A stretch of 64,000 nt of DNA from Microbacterium sp. (lineage in GTDB: Bacteria > Actinomycetota > Actinomycetes > Actinomycetales > Microbacteriaceae): contig JAFKIL010000002.1 in the NCBI GenBank assembly GCA_017306415.1, positions 248,001-312,000 of the forward strand. Reading direction: 5' to 3'. Within the stretch, counting starts at the first letter, position 1, and each line of letters starts with the position of its first letter. Both the position numbers and the translations under genes were made by a program. Under the pieces are notes generated by a model. The model made no database searches. It was given only the letters and a program-made list of their open reading frames with translations, and was not told the DNA's origin. Positions 44,370 to 49,858 of the stretch are shown here, piece after piece.

Positions 44370-44443
44370 GGGGGTATAGCTCAGGCGGTTAGAGCGCTTC
44401 ACTGATAATGAAGAGGTCCCAGGTTCAAGTCCTGGTACCCCCA
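44370..44443 (+). tRNA. tRNA-Ile (GAT)
   Basis: A 74-nt cloverleaf. Acceptor stem GGGGGTA pairs with TACCCCC; the anticodon stem CTTCA/TGAAG closes loop CTGATAA with anticodon GAT; the T arm contains GTTCAAGTC. CCA is not encoded. A possible promoter is TTCGAG-N18-TAAAGT (44305-44334). Confidence 0.97.
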
Positions 44444-44454
44444 CCGAAAGCCCC

Positions 44455-44527
44455 GGGGCCTTAGCTCAGTTGGTAGAGCGCCTGCTTTGCAAGCAGGATG
44501 TCAGGAGTTCGAATCTCCTAGGCTCCA
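44455..44527 (+). tRNA. tRNA-Ala (TGC)
   Basis: A 73-nt cloverleaf. GGGGCCT pairs with AGGCTCC (one G-U); anticodon stem CCTGC/GCAGG with loop TTTGCAA gives anticodon TGC. CCA is not encoded. It lies 11 nt after tRNA-Ile, the usual pair downstream of gyrA. Confidence 0.97.
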
Positions 44528-44536
44528 CAGACGTAC

Positions 44537-44567: not shown

Positions 44568-45659
44568 TCATCCACTCGGCAGGCAGCGCGAGAGGATCGT
44601 GAGATGGATCGATCCGTCGATCGTGGTGGTGTCGTGCAGAGTGAGGGACTCGACGCTTCTCGTGCTGCTGTGCCGGATGTCGGACCCCATTGCCCGGTCT
44701 TTTCGGTAGCCGACCGCGCTCCAGGCGGCGAGGATCTGCGTCGCTGAGCGCGCGTTGTCGCCCGTGCGGAGCTCCAGGGTCACCACTCGACGCGAGCCGG
44801 AGGCATCGCAGGCTCCGGCCGTAGCGGTCACGGCAGCGGGATCGACGGGCACGCGCCCCGCATCCGTGACAGGTCCGACCGCCGACGCGATCGTGAGCGA
44901 GGTCATCCGCGCCATCTCTTCATCGACAGCTCGGGCGGCCTCGGTAGTGGATGTCGGGGAGGGGGTCACCGAGCCGGCCCCGATCTGGCCACCAGAGAGT
45001 CCGCACGAAGCGTGTCGATGGGTGAGCTTCGCCAGCGTGAACGAGGGCGGCCGTGCGGAGGCGTCGATCGGCCGCCCGCTCGCGTCGCCGATGTCGTACC
45101 AGACGCGGAGATCCGTTCCGTCGTCGCGTACGACATAGGCGTCGTTCGCGAACGGGGCGAAGCCGTCGTCTCCTCCGGTGGAGGCGACCTTCGTCACCAG
45201 GATTCCGTCCTGTCGATAGACCGTTCCCCAGCCCGAGAGCAGGAAGGAACTCTCGGCCACGATGTAACCCGTGTCGCATCCCTCGCTGATGATGGGCGAG
45301 ACGGTGACCGGACGCAGGACGATCAGACCGATCGCGACGGCCAGGCTCGCCGTCGCGATCGCGGCGAGCCGGATCGGGATCATTAGTGCGAGCCAACGGC
45401 GGCGCACGGGGATCACACACAGGCCCACAGTCACGACGACGACGGCGACGACGACGGCGACGGTGACGATCCCTTCGGAGTCCAGAGGTCCCATGAGAAC
45501 CGATGCGCGGCCTCCTGTCCATGTCGTCACACCGACGACGAGGGAGAGCGTCAGCACGACGACGGCCAGGAGAACACTTCCCGCCACGCCGATGCGACGA
45601 CGCGCGACCACCGATCGCCCGGGAACCGCACCGGGGGCGGGCGGCGAGACGTCGGGCAC
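44568..45659 (-). CDS. Hypothetical membrane protein with extracytoplasmic domain
   Basis: A 363-residue protein not recognised. Three hydrophobic helices lie in the first ~120 residues (about 25-47, 64-83 and 95-113); a valine-rich helix is encoded by a GAC/GTC-like simple stretch. A predicted outside domain of about 245 residues follows, with possible paired cysteines. The gene converges on the tRNA pair and is separated from the Tes-like operon by 73 nt. GTG start. Confidence 0.7.
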   Translation of the reverse strand: MPDVSPPAPGAVPGRSVVARRRIGVAGSVLLAVVVLTLSLVVGVTTWTGGRASVLMGPLDSEGIVTVAVVVAVVVVTVGLCVIPVRRRWLALMIPIRLAAIATASLAVAIGLIVLRPVTVSPIISEGCDTGYIVAESSFLLSGWGTVYRQDGILVTKVASTGGDDGFAPFANDAYVVRDDGTDLRVWYDIGDASGRPIDASARPPSFTLAKLTHRHASCGLSGGQIGAGSVTPSPTSTTEAARAVDEEMARMTSLTIASAVGPVTDAGRVPVDPAAVTATAGACDASGSRRVVTLELRTGDNARSATQILAAWSAVGYRKDRAMGSDIRHSSTRSVESLTLHDTTTIDGSIHLTILSRCLPSG

Positions 45660-45732: not shown

Positions 45733-46215
45733 TCAGCCGCCGGTCATCCCGTTCAGAATCGCGAGACAGGGCCCGAGCACGACGATCCATGCTGCGGCCG
45801 AGGCGATCAGGATGCCGGTCGCGATCCCGCGGGTCCTCCGGAAGAACATCATCACGATCGCGACGGCGGCGATCGTGAGGAAGGGCCACAGCCAGCCGTA
45901 GGCGTTGCCGATGATCCCCGCCGTCGCGAAGAGGAGCACCACTCCGAGGACGTAGGCGCCGCAGCCGATGCCGACGCCGATGCCGATGCGCCCGCCGAGA
46001 CTCGGCCCGCGGGTCGCCGGGGCGGGCTGCATCGGAGCGGGAGGAGGAACCGGCCCGGCTGCGTCATACGGCGGCGTCGCGGCCGGCTGGAGGGGCGGGA
46101 TCATCCCTTCCGGCGACACCGCGCCCGCCGGTGGGATCGGCGCGGGCGCGGGATCCGGCGTCGAACGTTCGGGGTCTGCGGGGCCCTCGTCGGGCTCATC
46201 GGGCGTGCTGCTCAT
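45733..46215 (-). CDS. Proline-rich small membrane protein
   Basis: A 160-residue protein. A long proline- and alanine-rich N-terminus (about 1-72) precedes three hydrophobic helices (about 78-100, 105-125, 133-155). Its ATG lies inside the end of the Lgt-like gene (20-nt overlap), so it is probably the last gene of the Tes-like operon. No family is recognised; similar short Pro-rich membrane proteins are common in actinobacteria. Confidence 0.72.
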   Translation of the reverse strand: MSSTPDEPDEGPADPERSTPDPAPAPIPPAGAVSPEGMIPPLQPAATPPYDAAGPVPPPAPMQPAPATRGPSLGGRIGIGVGIGCGAYVLGVVLLFATAGIIGNAYGWLWPFLTIAAVAIVMMFFRRTRGIATGILIASAAAWIVVLGPCLAILNGMTGG

Positions 46216-47035
46216 CCGGCACCGTCCTCTCGGGGCTTTCCTCGGTCTCCGTCGCGTCGAGACGGGTCATGCGGAGGTCACCGCGCCGCGCCATCCAGAC
46301 GAGGCGCGCCAGCACGAGCGGGATCGTCACCATCAGGAACAGCTGCGGTCGCGTGAACCCCAGCCATGCCACATCGTTCCCGCGGACGAACTCGATGAAG
46401 AAGCGGAAGACGCCGTACGTGGCGATGTACAGCGTGAGCGTCTCGCCCGCCGCGATGGGCCGATGGCGCAACCAGAACCACAGCAGGATGAACGCGACGA
46501 CATGGAACGCGATCTCGTACACGAAGCTCGGGTGCAGGGGCACCCCCGCGAGCGAGCCCACCCGCGCCGCCGTCGCGGGATCCAGCACGATGCCCCAGGA
46601 CGTCTCCGTCGGCGTGCCCGGGCGCTCCGTCAAGAGGCAGCCGATCCGGCCGATCGCCATCGCGAGCGCGACCGCCGGCGCGAACAGATCGCCGGTGCGG
46701 AGGGGGTAGCGCGCGATCCGCTTGGCGACATGCACACCGAGCCAGGCGCCGACGAGCGCCGACAGCATCGACGCGTTGCCGTAGGCGAGCTGATCGACGA
46801 GGCTCAGATTCTTGGTGGGGTCGAGGTGCTGAGCCCACGTGCCGAGGCGTGAGAGGAGGGCGGCACCGGCGAGGGCGCCCAGCACGATGTACGGGATGCG
46901 CGGATCACGGACGCCCCGCCGCCGCTTCTCGATGAGGAACACGACACCGGCCGCGACGAGGCCGAGCGCGACGAAGACCGAGTGCGTGCCAAGCGGCGGG
47001 AGCCACGGCACGAGGTCCTGCAGCGTGGGGAACAC
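46196..47035 (-). CDS. Divergent Lgt-like prolipoprotein diacylglyceryl transferase
   Basis: A 279-residue polytopic membrane protein of the Lgt superfamily, about seven helices. The canonical Lgt signature GRxGNFxNxE is replaced by GRIGCLLTERPG (about 149-160). The substrate-loop segment HPSFVYE resembles canonical HPTQLYE, and a late arginine region FFIEFVRGND is present. Canonical Lgt uses phosphatidylglycerol to modify lipoprotein cysteines. The altered motif and the position beside a Tes-type radical-SAM gene suggest a specialised lipid substrate. GTG start. Confidence 0.85.
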   Translation of the reverse strand: MFPTLQDLVPWLPPLGTHSVFVALGLVAAGVVFLIEKRRRGVRDPRIPYIVLGALAGAALLSRLGTWAQHLDPTKNLSLVDQLAYGNASMLSALVGAWLGVHVAKRIARYPLRTGDLFAPAVALAMAIGRIGCLLTERPGTPTETSWGIVLDPATAARVGSLAGVPLHPSFVYEIAFHVVAFILLWFWLRHRPIAAGETLTLYIATYGVFRFFIEFVRGNDVAWLGFTRPQLFLMVTIPLVLARLVWMARRGDLRMTRLDATETEESPERTVPDEQHAR

Positions 47036-47038
47036 GGC

Positions 47039-47356
47039 TCAGCCCAGCACTCGCATCCAGAGCACGACCCAGAACGGGACGGCGGCGGCCGCCAGTACAG
47101 CGACGACCGAGAGGTAGACGAGGACGTTTCGGGTGGCGCCGAGCTTGCAACGCGAACGCAGCAGACCCGCGCGCCGTGCGCGTGCGTACCCGGCGATCGC
47201 GACGATCGCGAACCCGAGCACCGCGATCGGTCCGAGGAGGCACGCGATGACGGCGATCGTCGTGAACACGCACAGCCGCAGCGGATCGAACGGTGCGACC
47301 GGGTCGCCGACGGACTCGTCCCGCTGATTGAGATGGGCGTAATCGGCGGCGCTCAC
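47039..47356 (-). CDS. Small two-helix membrane protein
   Basis: A 105-residue protein with hydrophobic helices at about 29-54 and 79-101 and a basic loop between. It is unrecognised. Its GTG start overlaps the stop of the radical-SAM gene by 4 nt (GTGA), showing translational coupling, and it ends 3 nt before the Lgt-like gene. It may be a membrane partner of the operon. The longer open frame upstream is a shadow of the radical-SAM gene. Confidence 0.75.
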   Translation of the reverse strand: MSAADYAHLNQRDESVGDPVAPFDPLRLCVFTTIAVIACLLGPIAVLGFAIVAIAGYARARRAGLLRSRCKLGATRNVLVYLSVVAVLAAAAVPFWVVLWMRVLG

Positions 47357-48948
47357 GACGCCACCGTCACGGGGATCTGTCGCCGCCCGCCGGTGGCCGT
47401 GGAGATGCGCGTGCGCGAGAGCGGTGCCCACGCCTGAACGGCGCAGAACGGCGCGCACTGGTGCGCATCCGTCGACTCGTTCACCGTCGCGACGTGCACG
47501 CAGCACTGCGTGAGGCGCTCCTCGATCATCGTGTTGATGTCCATGAACGGCTTGATCGTGACGCGAAGGACGCGGTCGGCGAGCATCCGTCGCAGACGCT
47601 GGTGCTGTCCGGGCAGCCGGGAGGCGGCGAGGGTCGCCAGCGTGCCGATCCCGAGATCGCAGTTCAGGCAGATGTCGCGCCAGATGTCGCTCATCGATGG
47701 ATGCGAGAGCGACGACTGCTCGCTCAGGAGGTCGAGCAGCGAGTTCTTCACGACGCCGCGGATCGCGGCGTTGACATTCGAGTCGGCGATCCGGTTCGCC
47801 AGGAGGTCGGGGTTGAGGTCGAGGAACTCCTTCAGCCGCTCGTGTCCGATCAGACCGACGAGGGACTTCCACTCGTCGGCGTCGTCTTTGAGGAAGTACC
47901 CGACCGAGCAGCAGTGCGGATGGCTGCAGGGCAGAGCGGTGAGGTCGCGCCACGTGATCAGGTCGTCGGTCTGCGGGCCGAGCCTGGCCAGCACCCCCGT
48001 GTGCGTGAGGCGGTCGTCCGGATCGATGCCGGCCGACCGACCCGAGCCGAACACGGGCTGGACGGTGACACCCCCGACGTACGGCGTCGCCATGGCGCGG
48101 CGGATCACGGCGCCGATCTCGCCGTCGTTCACGCCGAGAGCGGCGGTCATGGTCAACGTCGTGAAGACGCCCGCCTCCGACAGCCGGGCGATCGCGCGCT
48201 CCTTGAACCGGCGGATGTCGGCACCGCGATGGTAGGCGGATGCCTCGGCCGACTCTCCGTCGTACTGCAGGTAGACCTCGACGCGCTCCCGATGTCGCTT
48301 GAGCGTCTCGACGAGGCCGTCGTCCTGCGCGATGCGCAGTCCGTTGGAATTGAGCAGGATGCGGACGATCGGACGGGCGACCAGGTGCTCGAGGAGCTGC
48401 TCGAGCCACGGGTACAGGGTCGGTTCCCCGCCGGAGAGCATCAGCACGTCGATGCGGTCGTTCTCCTTCGCCAGGCGCGCGTCGACCGAGGCGAGCACCT
48501 CCGCGAGGGGCGCGATCGCCGATGCGGCCGGGCCGGACTCCGCGAAGCACGTGGGGCAACGCAGGTTGCAGTGGTCGGTGAGGTCTTCGAGCAGGATGCA
48601 CGTGTGCTGAGTCTGCATCTGCGGGAGGCCGTCCTCATAGGCTGACGGCACCGGCTTGAAGTTGCCGGCGGTGTCGGGTCCGTGCACCTTCGTCGGTGCC
48701 GTCCACTGCTCCAGATACGCGAGGAGCTCGGCCGACTCGTCGTACAGCGTGCGGACGAGGCCGTGGTCCGGGCAGCCGCGCTCCAGCCACACGACGCCGT
48801 CCCGATCGGCGAGCCACCCCGACAGGCGCCGGACCTCCGAGAGCGGACGCTCCGGGTCCTCCTCGTGGCAGCGGGGGCAGAAGGCGTTCACGTAGCGGTG
48901 GATGCGATAGTCGCGCAACGGCATCCCGGTTCCGGCGGCGGGCGTCAT
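47353..48948 (-). CDS. Radical-SAM protein of the Tes (tetraether lipid synthase-like) family
   Basis: A 531-residue radical-SAM enzyme. The N-terminus has a cysteine cluster CPRCH (24-28) and GCPDHG (58-63). The radical-SAM cluster motif is CNLRCPTC (Cys127, Cys131, Cys134), with the SAM-binding GGE at 173-175. Additional cysteines lie at CSHPHCCSVGY, ICLNCD, LTQCCVHV and APFCAVQAW. This pattern matches the COG1964/MJ0619 family, in which the archaeal enzyme Tes joins lipid tails by C-C bonds. The extra cysteines could bind further Fe-S clusters, as in Tes. The substrate here is unknown; a membrane lipid is inferred from the Lgt-like neighbour. Confidence 0.85.
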   Translation of the reverse strand: MTPAAGTGMPLRDYRIHRYVNAFCPRCHEEDPERPLSEVRRLSGWLADRDGVVWLERGCPDHGLVRTLYDESAELLAYLEQWTAPTKVHGPDTAGNFKPVPSAYEDGLPQMQTQHTCILLEDLTDHCNLRCPTCFAESGPAASAIAPLAEVLASVDARLAKENDRIDVLMLSGGEPTLYPWLEQLLEHLVARPIVRILLNSNGLRIAQDDGLVETLKRHRERVEVYLQYDGESAEASAYHRGADIRRFKERAIARLSEAGVFTTLTMTAALGVNDGEIGAVIRRAMATPYVGGVTVQPVFGSGRSAGIDPDDRLTHTGVLARLGPQTDDLITWRDLTALPCSHPHCCSVGYFLKDDADEWKSLVGLIGHERLKEFLDLNPDLLANRIADSNVNAAIRGVVKNSLLDLLSEQSSLSHPSMSDIWRDICLNCDLGIGTLATLAASRLPGQHQRLRRMLADRVLRVTIKPFMDINTMIEERLTQCCVHVATVNESTDAHQCAPFCAVQAWAPLSRTRISTATGGRRQIPVTVAS

Positions 48949-48995
48949 GCGCTCACCCTATCCGGGGCGCTCGCGGTGCCACCGGGGTCTCCGAG

Positions 48996-49220
48996 TCAGT
49001 TGGGGACAACCGGCGGATCGACCGTCCGACCGGCGAGGATGTGCCATCCCAGCCACCACCAGATCACGACGATCGCGACCCGGATGACTCGATCGGCCAT
49101 GAGCCGGTCGAACATCGCGGTGACGGTCGCCGCCGGATAGCGGCGGCCGATCACCCACCCTGTGACCGCCAGCGCGGCGCCGCACAGCACGAAACAGGAC
49201 ACGCTGACGAAGAAGATCAC
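48996..49220 (-). CDS. DUF6186-like small membrane protein
   Basis: A 74-residue protein with two hydrophobic helices (about 2-24 and 48-63) and the segment WWWLGWHILAG, resembling DUF6186 proteins. The GTG start overlaps the stop of the upstream gene (GTGA). It precedes the radical-SAM gene by 47 nt. Confidence 0.7.
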   Translation of the reverse strand: MIFFVSVSCFVLCGAALAVTGWVIGRRYPAATVTAMFDRLMADRVIRVAIVVIWWWLGWHILAGRTVDPPVVPN

Positions 49221-49858
49221 GGTCGCCTCCCGCGTCGCACGAGGAACACGCCGGCAACGACCCAGGCGGCGATGAAGAGAACGCGCCCGGGGAGGCTCGA
49301 CACGAGCGGGTCGACGAGGTCGCTGAGCGCGAACCACTGCAGGCGCGGCTCGACTCGTCCGAGGATGAACTGGAGGAGCTCCCACAGGCAGCCCGCGACG
49401 AGGATGACGCTCCACGCGATCGCGAGACGCTGCAGACCGCGGGACCAGGGCGCCGCGGGCGGACCGTCCGGCTGCGACCATGCCAGGGCCAGCGCGGTCA
49501 CGCCGGCCGCGATCACGACGGCGGCCATCCATCCTCCGTGTCTCGGCGCGACGCACATCGCCGCACCGAACACGGCGGCGCTGGCGATCAGCCGACGCAG
49601 CCTCGGCCGCACGCGCGAGCGGAAGCGCGGCATCAGCCCTGCGGCGTCCGCGCCGAGAGCCAGGACGACGACGAGGAAGACGGAGGAGTCGAACCACTGC
49701 GCGCGCACGACCTGCACGATGCCGATGGCCAGGAGGATCGCGAGCCAGGCCGCCTCGGACCAGCGCAGACCGCGGCGGCGCCCTGGCGAGACGCCGGTGT
49801 CACCCGCATCCGCAGCGGCATCCCGGTGCGTGCCACCGGCCTCCTCGCGCGGATCCAT
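49217..49858 (-). CDS. Multi-helix membrane protein, first gene of the Tes-like operon
   Basis: A 213-residue protein with about six hydrophobic helices after a charged N-terminus of ~35 residues. It is unrecognised. A strong GGAGGGAGGATGGG leader precedes the ATG at 49858. It is the first gene of the leftward run to 45733 and is coupled by a 4-nt overlap to the DUF6186-like gene. Confidence 0.72.
   Translation of the reverse strand: MDPREEAGGTHRDAAADAGDTGVSPGRRRGLRWSEAAWLAILLAIGIVQVVRAQWFDSSVFLVVVLALGADAAGLMPRFRSRVRPRLRRLIASAAVFGAAMCVAPRHGGWMAAVVIAAGVTALALAWSQPDGPPAAPWSRGLQRLAIAWSVILVAGCLWELLQFILGRVEPRLQWFALSDLVDPLVSSLPGRVLFIAAWVVAGVFLVRRGRRP

Follow-up and report, generated by a model that had tools for sequence, protein, structure and literature searches.

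A radical-SAM enzyme of the Tes fold and a divergent Lgt-like transferase form the core of a patchily distributed gene unit in Actinomycetota

We analyzed a 64,000-nt stretch of a Microbacterium sp. genome (GCA_017306415.1, 3.76 Mb in 13 contigs; contig JAFKIL010000002.1, positions 248,001 to 312,000; hereafter, the window), in which a radical S-adenosylmethionine (SAM) enzyme related to the tetraether lipid synthase Tes, which joins lipid tails in archaea, is encoded close to a divergent relative of the phosphatidylglycerol:prolipoprotein diacylglyceryl transferase Lgt. An initial reading of this DNA from its letters alone, here called the original prediction, had drawn attention to both genes. 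Six leftward open reading frames (ORFs) were confirmed between positions 45733 and 49858 (Table 1), and the GTGA overlaps between the 213- and 74-residue genes (49217-49220) and between the radical-SAM and 105-residue genes (47353-47356), as well as the 20 nt shared by the Lgt-like gene and the proline-rich gene (46196-46215), all lie where that prediction had placed them.

Table 1. Features of the radical-SAM/Lgt-like locus, with positions in the window
Feature	Position	Strand	Basis
Radical-SAM enzyme, 531 aa, Tes fold	47353..48948	-	Sequence motifs, Pfam/NCBIfam, phmmer, Foldseek
105-aa membrane protein, DPLRLC and SxCxL motifs, 4-nt overlap with the radical-SAM gene	47039..47356	-	
Lgt-like transferase, 279 aa, GTG start, GRIGC replacing the Lgt signature GRxGN	46196..47035	-	
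160-aa protein, proline-rich N terminus, three hydrophobic stretches, C-terminal GPC	45733..46215	-	
TAGGGT, -10-like box 12 nt ahead of the radical-SAM ATG	48955..48960	-	Putative leaderless-type promoter
74-aa DUF6186 protein, neighbor outside the conserved unit	48996..49220	-	
213-aa membrane protein, neighbor outside the conserved unit	49217..49858	-	

The original prediction had treated the six ORFs as a single operon containing four small membrane proteins. To delimit the unit, we scanned a collection of named genomes, which yielded 282 stretches encoding a relative of the radical-SAM enzyme, and kept the best 80 loci (the named loci), the fetched flanks of which, at most 6 kb long, were searched by tblastn at E 1e-3. 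The 105-aa protein has a relative beside 75 of the 80 named loci, and the 160-aa protein has one near 73 when a profile is used at a low threshold of 12 bits (37 by tblastn), while no relative of the 213- or 74-residue gene was detected by tblastn in these flanks or in 20 further stretches (L113-L132). Of the four small proteins, only the 105-aa and 160-aa proteins are conserved. A TANNNT box starts 11 to 13 nt before the radical-SAM gene in 37 of the 44 loci in which this gene comes first, compared with 0.24% of random places, and is found before the start of the Lgt-like gene in 4 of 29 loci in which the latter leads. Since such a box fits a leaderless promoter, the conserved unit most likely begins at 48948 and consists of four genes, encoding the radical-SAM enzyme, the 105-aa protein, the Lgt-like protein, and the 160-aa protein. 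The six ORFs therefore stand, while we reject a six-gene operon in view of the promoter box and of the two upstream genes having no tblastn relatives in the flanks and stretches searched. Beyond the unit, gene-family clustering of the neighborhoods recovered the next family in just 12 of 81 loci.

The pairing of the radical-SAM gene with the Lgt-like gene is real and far beyond chance. The two genes adjoin each other in 78 of the 80 named loci, the remaining two (L064 and L065) stopping at a contig edge on the expected side; across the 94 loci of the clade that we refer to as paired, which include two pieces of one genome, they do so in 91, with L064, L065, and L121 all lying at contig ends. 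The proposed tie to a divergent Lgt was thus borne out. The expectation that homologs outside the genus would be paired as well held for these close relatives and mostly failed for distant ones (about 30% identity), among which 13 of 14 loci have no Lgt-like neighbor, four of these stretches being 8 kb or shorter. Gene order, read by profile search in 108 loci (the 94 of the paired clade and the 14 distant ones), is radical-SAM, 105-aa protein, Lgt in 45, the window included, and has the Lgt-like gene ahead of the radical-SAM gene in 47, one of them a distant Persicobacter locus. With gene order varying between lineages and the distribution being patchy, a chance neighborhood or plain synteny can be ruled out.

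The two genes also come and go together. Within the family, where genomes do not represent independent samples, the radical-SAM gene was found in 4 of 299 genomes; exactly these 4 also have an Lgt-like gene of at least 54% identity, and the Lgt match that ranks next scores 67 bits. In a sample of the phylum, 24 of 396 genomes contain some radical-SAM relative, which in ten of them is a close one (the genome of the window itself and nine others, at 50 to 66% identity), and a profile of the Lgt-like protein (E 1e-40) matched 10 of 386 genomes, identical to these ten. This count leaves out one genome (G203) that holds only radical-SAM fragments, of which one is interrupted by a stop and another is 74% identical across 46 residues, and that lacks an Lgt-like match. 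In a genus taken as Mycobacterium, since the coordinates of the radical-SAM gene in one of its genomes (G796) equal those on the M. branderi plasmid, 47 of 178 genomes carry the radical-SAM gene, in every case with the Lgt-like gene no more than 1 kb away on that contig. The Lgt-like gene occurs in 50 of the 178; of the three genomes with this gene only, one (G770) has a broken copy with an internal stop, and in the other two (G695, which is 70% complete, and G820) the downstream side falls at a contig edge. Because the spread is patchy, joint gain or loss of both genes is the simplest reading.

In the named collection, the closest relatives of the radical-SAM enzyme are from Microbacterium, at up to 92% identity, and the unit is carried by named Microbacterium, Agromyces, Nocardioides, and Knoellia genomes and also by Mycobacterium plasmids. 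No viral carriage was found in the viral contigs searched with two peptide patterns. On the plasmids pS2b (M. avium; L133, 5225-8545) and pJCM12687 (M. branderi; L134, 5355-8548), the Lgt-like and radical-SAM genes occur together with two small genes, and a transposase gene, with or without TnpB, lies within about 1.5 kb.

The original prediction had assigned the radical-SAM enzyme to the Tes family, and our data support kinship with Tes while arguing against membership. The best solved relative is MJ0619 (7TOL; phmmer E 3e-32), and Foldseek matched the predicted model to 7tol (E 1.1e-23) and 7tom (E 2e-23), the next match being the peptide maturase SkfB at 2e-5; superposition on 7TOL gave TM scores of 0.61/0.65 and a root mean square deviation of 7.4 over 567 columns. 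Pfam families above cut-off are Radical_SAM and the HMPTM zinc ribbon, the latter occurring, among 14 control genomes, in those of M. jannaschii, S. acidocaldarius, and M. acetivorans only; the Tes model exceeded its own cut-off in three of the control genomes. Every cysteine motif that had been named in the enzyme is present. The rubredoxin-type ligands C24/C27/C59/H62 and the radical-SAM cysteines C127/C131/C134 are conserved in 90/90 aligned rows of the paired clade, and C482, C483, C498, and C502 lie near the C terminus. The equivalents of MJ0619 C9, C12, C33, H36, C98, C102, C105, Q268, R275, and C455 are likewise kept in 90/90 paired rows, and that of C470 in 89, with one gap. The enzyme therefore shares with MJ0619 the fold, the CxxC...CxxH site, the CX3CX2C motif, the C-terminal CC...PFC region, and the counterparts of Q268 and R275, although its rubredoxin-type loop spans 31 residues, compared with 20 in Tes. 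We furthermore observed four cysteines without counterparts in MJ0619, C341 and C346 (in PCSHPHCC) and the CxxC pair C427/C430, that are invariant in 54/54 rows and might bind a further cluster; a PC..P.C motif resembling that of C341/C346 is found in 11 of 15 other rows.

Membership in Tes is ruled out by residues and score. Cysteine at MJ0619 positions 73, 77, and 80 or histidine at 83, the ligands of the [Fe4S4]N cluster, occurs in 0/90 paired rows (the residues aligned with this window in our enzyme are V100, D106, P109, and Q112), while the motif is found in 13 of the 15 non-paired rows, MJ0619 included. Moreover, Met439 of Tes is lysine in 90/90 and Tyr459 is valine in 88/90 paired rows; the residue roles are those reported for Tes, of which the M439A variant is still active (PMC9433317). 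The score against the Tes/GDGT-MAS model NF045702 is 147.7 bits at a cut-off of 450. Because the [Fe4S4]N ligands are missing, one extra Fe-S site of Tes is absent, and this amounts to half of what the original prediction had named as grounds for abandoning the idea, namely a structure lacking both the extra Fe-S sites and the lipid channel. These losses also bear on a tail-to-tail coupling like that of the bacterial membrane-spanning lipid synthase Mss, in which the enzyme would make membrane-spanning lipids resembling diabolic acid and the Lgt-like protein would just help with head groups. Mss, likened here by description only, is reported to have a Tes-like architecture and to act on bacterial acyl lipids (PMC13274423), Zeng et al. 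proposed membrane-spanning lipids as the product of bacterial Tes homologs (PMC8941075), and Mss homologs have been reported in 17 of 146 Actinobacteriota metagenome-assembled genomes (MAGs) from the Black Sea, with Actinobacteriota discussed as their carriers (PMC11868695). However, our enzyme lacks Met439 and the ligands of [Fe4S4]N, the available text of PMC13274423 does not mention an Lgt-like partner, and no paper with both Microbacterium and diabolic acid was among the matches listed from the open-access literature; we consider this explanation quite unlikely.

Another way to read the enzyme is through TrsS, the best-scoring NCBIfam model (NF045646, 191.3 bits), in which case the unit would be connected with selenium, redox, or methyl transfer and the Lgt-like gene would be secondary. 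Three relatives from the paired clade score 182 to 205 bits with this model. With the Tes and TrsS models, seven distant rows reach 285 to 355 bits and four paired rows 139 to 205 bits. Related radical-SAM genes in haloarchaea and on a Mycolicibacterium plasmid do lie beside methyltransferase and redox genes. Nevertheless, the score is far below the cut-off of 490, the paired unit has neither a methyltransferase partner nor any further conserved gene, the frame of the radical-SAM gene contains no internal stop, unlike TrsS, and all 31 paired rows of a tree with 46 rows form one side of a branch with 100/100 support and a long stem, the root being unsure. A TrsS-like system therefore appears highly improbable to us.

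Outside the paired clade, the Tes/TrsS-like radical-SAM genes of haloarchaea and the Mycolicibacterium plasmid (L138, 3890-6168; L139, 4007-6210; L136, 3902-6270) are each directly followed by a gene with a methyltransferase domain, and redoxin-like or disulfide-oxidoreductase genes lie near these pairs. On a plasmid of Persicobacter psychrovividus (Bacteroidota; L137, 3265-4011 and 4001-5395), a 248-codon Lgt-like gene, which also reads GRIGC, overlaps a 464-codon radical-SAM gene by 11 nt. This is one case; the radical-SAM protein keeps the N-terminal cluster motif and has PFE in place of PFC, and its position as the sister of the paired clade is unsure (90/90, long branches). In a distant actinobacterial genome (G162; L120, 7068-8810), the radical-SAM sequence lies within a 900-codon open frame and was matched by the query in two segments separated by a gap.

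The partner protein is recognizably an Lgt relative. It scores 101.9 bits with PF01790 (LGT; cut-off, 24.9) and stays at 64.5 bits with TIGR00544 (cut-off, 118.9), and its model, with a mean predicted local distance difference test (pLDDT) of 90, yielded a single Foldseek match with an E value of at most 0.001, E. coli Lgt (5azb; E 8e-7). Besides the fold, it shares with E. coli Lgt the residues R143, Y235, R239, E243, and R246, which, matched to 5azb, correspond to R130, Y207, R211, E215, and R218 and are invariant in 43/43 rows. In contrast, the signature reads GRxGC in 43/43 rows and GRxGN in none, replacing N146 with cysteine, Y26 is replaced by an invariant histidine (H18), and the histidine of HGGL (E. 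coli H103) is leucine. We no longer read the missing H103 as evidence that function has changed, since canonical actinobacterial Lgts also have no histidine there, a loss that PMC13251419 covers as well. A duplicate housekeeping Lgt is unlikely because the same genome encodes two canonical Lgts elsewhere, both with GRLGN. According to PMC13251419, N146A inactivates E. coli Lgt and some distant Lgts have cysteine at this position, among them that of L. interrogans, which in E. coli restores cell shape and, poorly, viability; this partly working Cys146 enzyme counts against a changed function of the Lgt-like protein. The same source describes a second Lgt homolog of M. smegmatis, MSMEG_5408, with both Y26H and N146C and a presumed low Lgt activity. 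Judged from this description, MSMEG_5408 presumably belongs to the Lgt-like family of the unit.

The two small proteins offer candidate acceptors. In the 105-aa protein, C29 and C70 are invariant in 31/31 aligned rows, and 79 of 81 ORFs resembling the 160-aa protein end in G-x-C. The 105-aa protein, the 160-aa protein, and five relatives of the latter have no Pfam family over cut-off. According to the positive-inside rule, their charge distribution would place C29 and C150 (160-aa protein) near the outer face, the side on which Lgt works. These features would suit a dedicated lipidation system, in which the Lgt-like enzyme puts diacylglyceryl on the cysteines of the small proteins (C29 and C150) and the radical-SAM enzyme modifies the protein or its anchor. 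Against this, the cysteine contexts are not lipoboxes by the usual consensus, the proteins resembling the 160-aa protein diverge strongly, the need for an enzyme of the Tes fold is left unexplained, and no 105-aa protein was detected at five loci from mycobacteria (L114-L116, L133, and L134) or at L063, L079, and L081, although it is present in L076, a MAG labeled Mycobacterium. We regard dedicated lipidation as unlikely.

Radical-SAM peptide maturases are common, and small cysteine-containing proteins encoded beside such an enzyme could alternatively be its substrates, with the Lgt-like protein serving in processing or export. Yet the maturase SkfB is only a distant next structural match, the small proteins resemble membrane proteins without a leader-core layout, and most loci lack a further gene family nearby. 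Peptide maturation is accordingly very unlikely in our view.

Starting from the gene unit, the co-occurrence, the folds, and the conserved residues, we infer that the unit may constitute a horizontally moving membrane-lipid modification system of patchy distribution, in which radical chemistry acts on the acyl tails of a diacylglyceryl lipid. We hold this reading tentatively, placing its chances a little below even; besides the Tes-like fold and the constant Lgt-like partner, the overlapping pair with GRIGC in Bacteroidota counts in its favor. In this scenario, the Tes-fold enzyme would generate a 5'-deoxyadenosyl radical at the C127/C131/C134 cluster and abstract a hydrogen from an acyl tail at an unactivated C-H position. 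As in Tes, which acts on lipid tails (PMC9433317), the C-terminal auxiliary cluster (C482/C483, C498, and C502 region) would then hold the carbon radical so that a bond can form. The Lgt-like protein would bind phosphatidylglycerol, reported as the diacylglyceryl donor of the Lgt family (PMC4728403), through its retained arginine network and transfer or present the diacylglyceryl unit, and the two small cysteine-containing membrane proteins would be docking partners or acceptors. The lipid substrate, the order of these steps, and the product, which could be tails that are coupled, cross-linked, or altered in some other way, are put forward conditionally. A more specific version is possible but, on balance, somewhat unlikely: a Tes relative with one cluster fewer might bond or cross-link the acyl tails of the diacylglyceryl unit that the N146C Lgt-like enzyme takes from phosphatidylglycerol, yielding a lipid or lipid-protein that spans the membrane or has two anchors and that may be carried by the invariant cysteines of the small proteins, with the Actinomycetota and Bacteroidota pairs as two branches of an older radical-SAM/Lgt partnership.

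Several points weigh against radical chemistry on lipid tails. Besides the loss of the [Fe4S4]N ligands, Met439, and Tyr459, NCBIfam scores TrsS above Tes for the enzyme, the model of which is middling (mean pLDDT, 70.6) with weak cluster loops, and the Lgt-like model superposes just moderately on E. coli Lgt (TM score, 0.57). The correlated protein distances of the two partners (Mantel r of 0.87 over 68 loci, 0/2000 permutations) speak for the reading, but would also be expected from shared ancestry alone. Lgt is reported to work on the outer face (PMC4728403), while the radical-SAM enzyme should be cytosolic. Fold and partner support the lipid-tail reading, but the relatives beside methyltransferase and redox genes indicate that the superfamily extends beyond lipid enzymes, so that the lipid inference depends on the Lgt partner, a constant neighbor that sets this clade apart from Tes.

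Bacterial Tes homologs as a group have been in print since 2022, with a proposed role in membrane-spanning lipids (PMC8941075); among the matches listed from the open-access literature, no paper dealt with their pairing with an Lgt-like gene. The unit may point to an undescribed way of bacterial membrane-lipid remodeling. An almost constant partner belonging to the most thoroughly studied family of diacylglyceryl-transferring enzymes narrows the search for the substrate of the radical-SAM enzyme, and the presence of the unit in culturable strains makes lipid analysis feasible. If tail chemistry proves true, radical lipid chemistry reaches common Gram-positive soil bacteria, and Lgt paralogs gain a role beyond lipoproteins.

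The surroundings of the unit in the window can be described briefly. Just upstream, the DUF6186 gene and the 213-aa membrane-protein gene form a separate GTGA-overlapping pair (48996-49858). On the left side lies a 363-aa ORF with hydrophobic N-terminal stretches (44568-45659), which matches nothing in Pfam or NCBIfam at E 1 and has no tblastn relative in the flanks of the 80 named loci. Also to the left are gyrA and, downstream of it, genes for tRNA-Ile and tRNA-Ala (44370-44528), which some 1.2 kb separate from where the unit ends; this tRNA region is a possible landing site for the unit.

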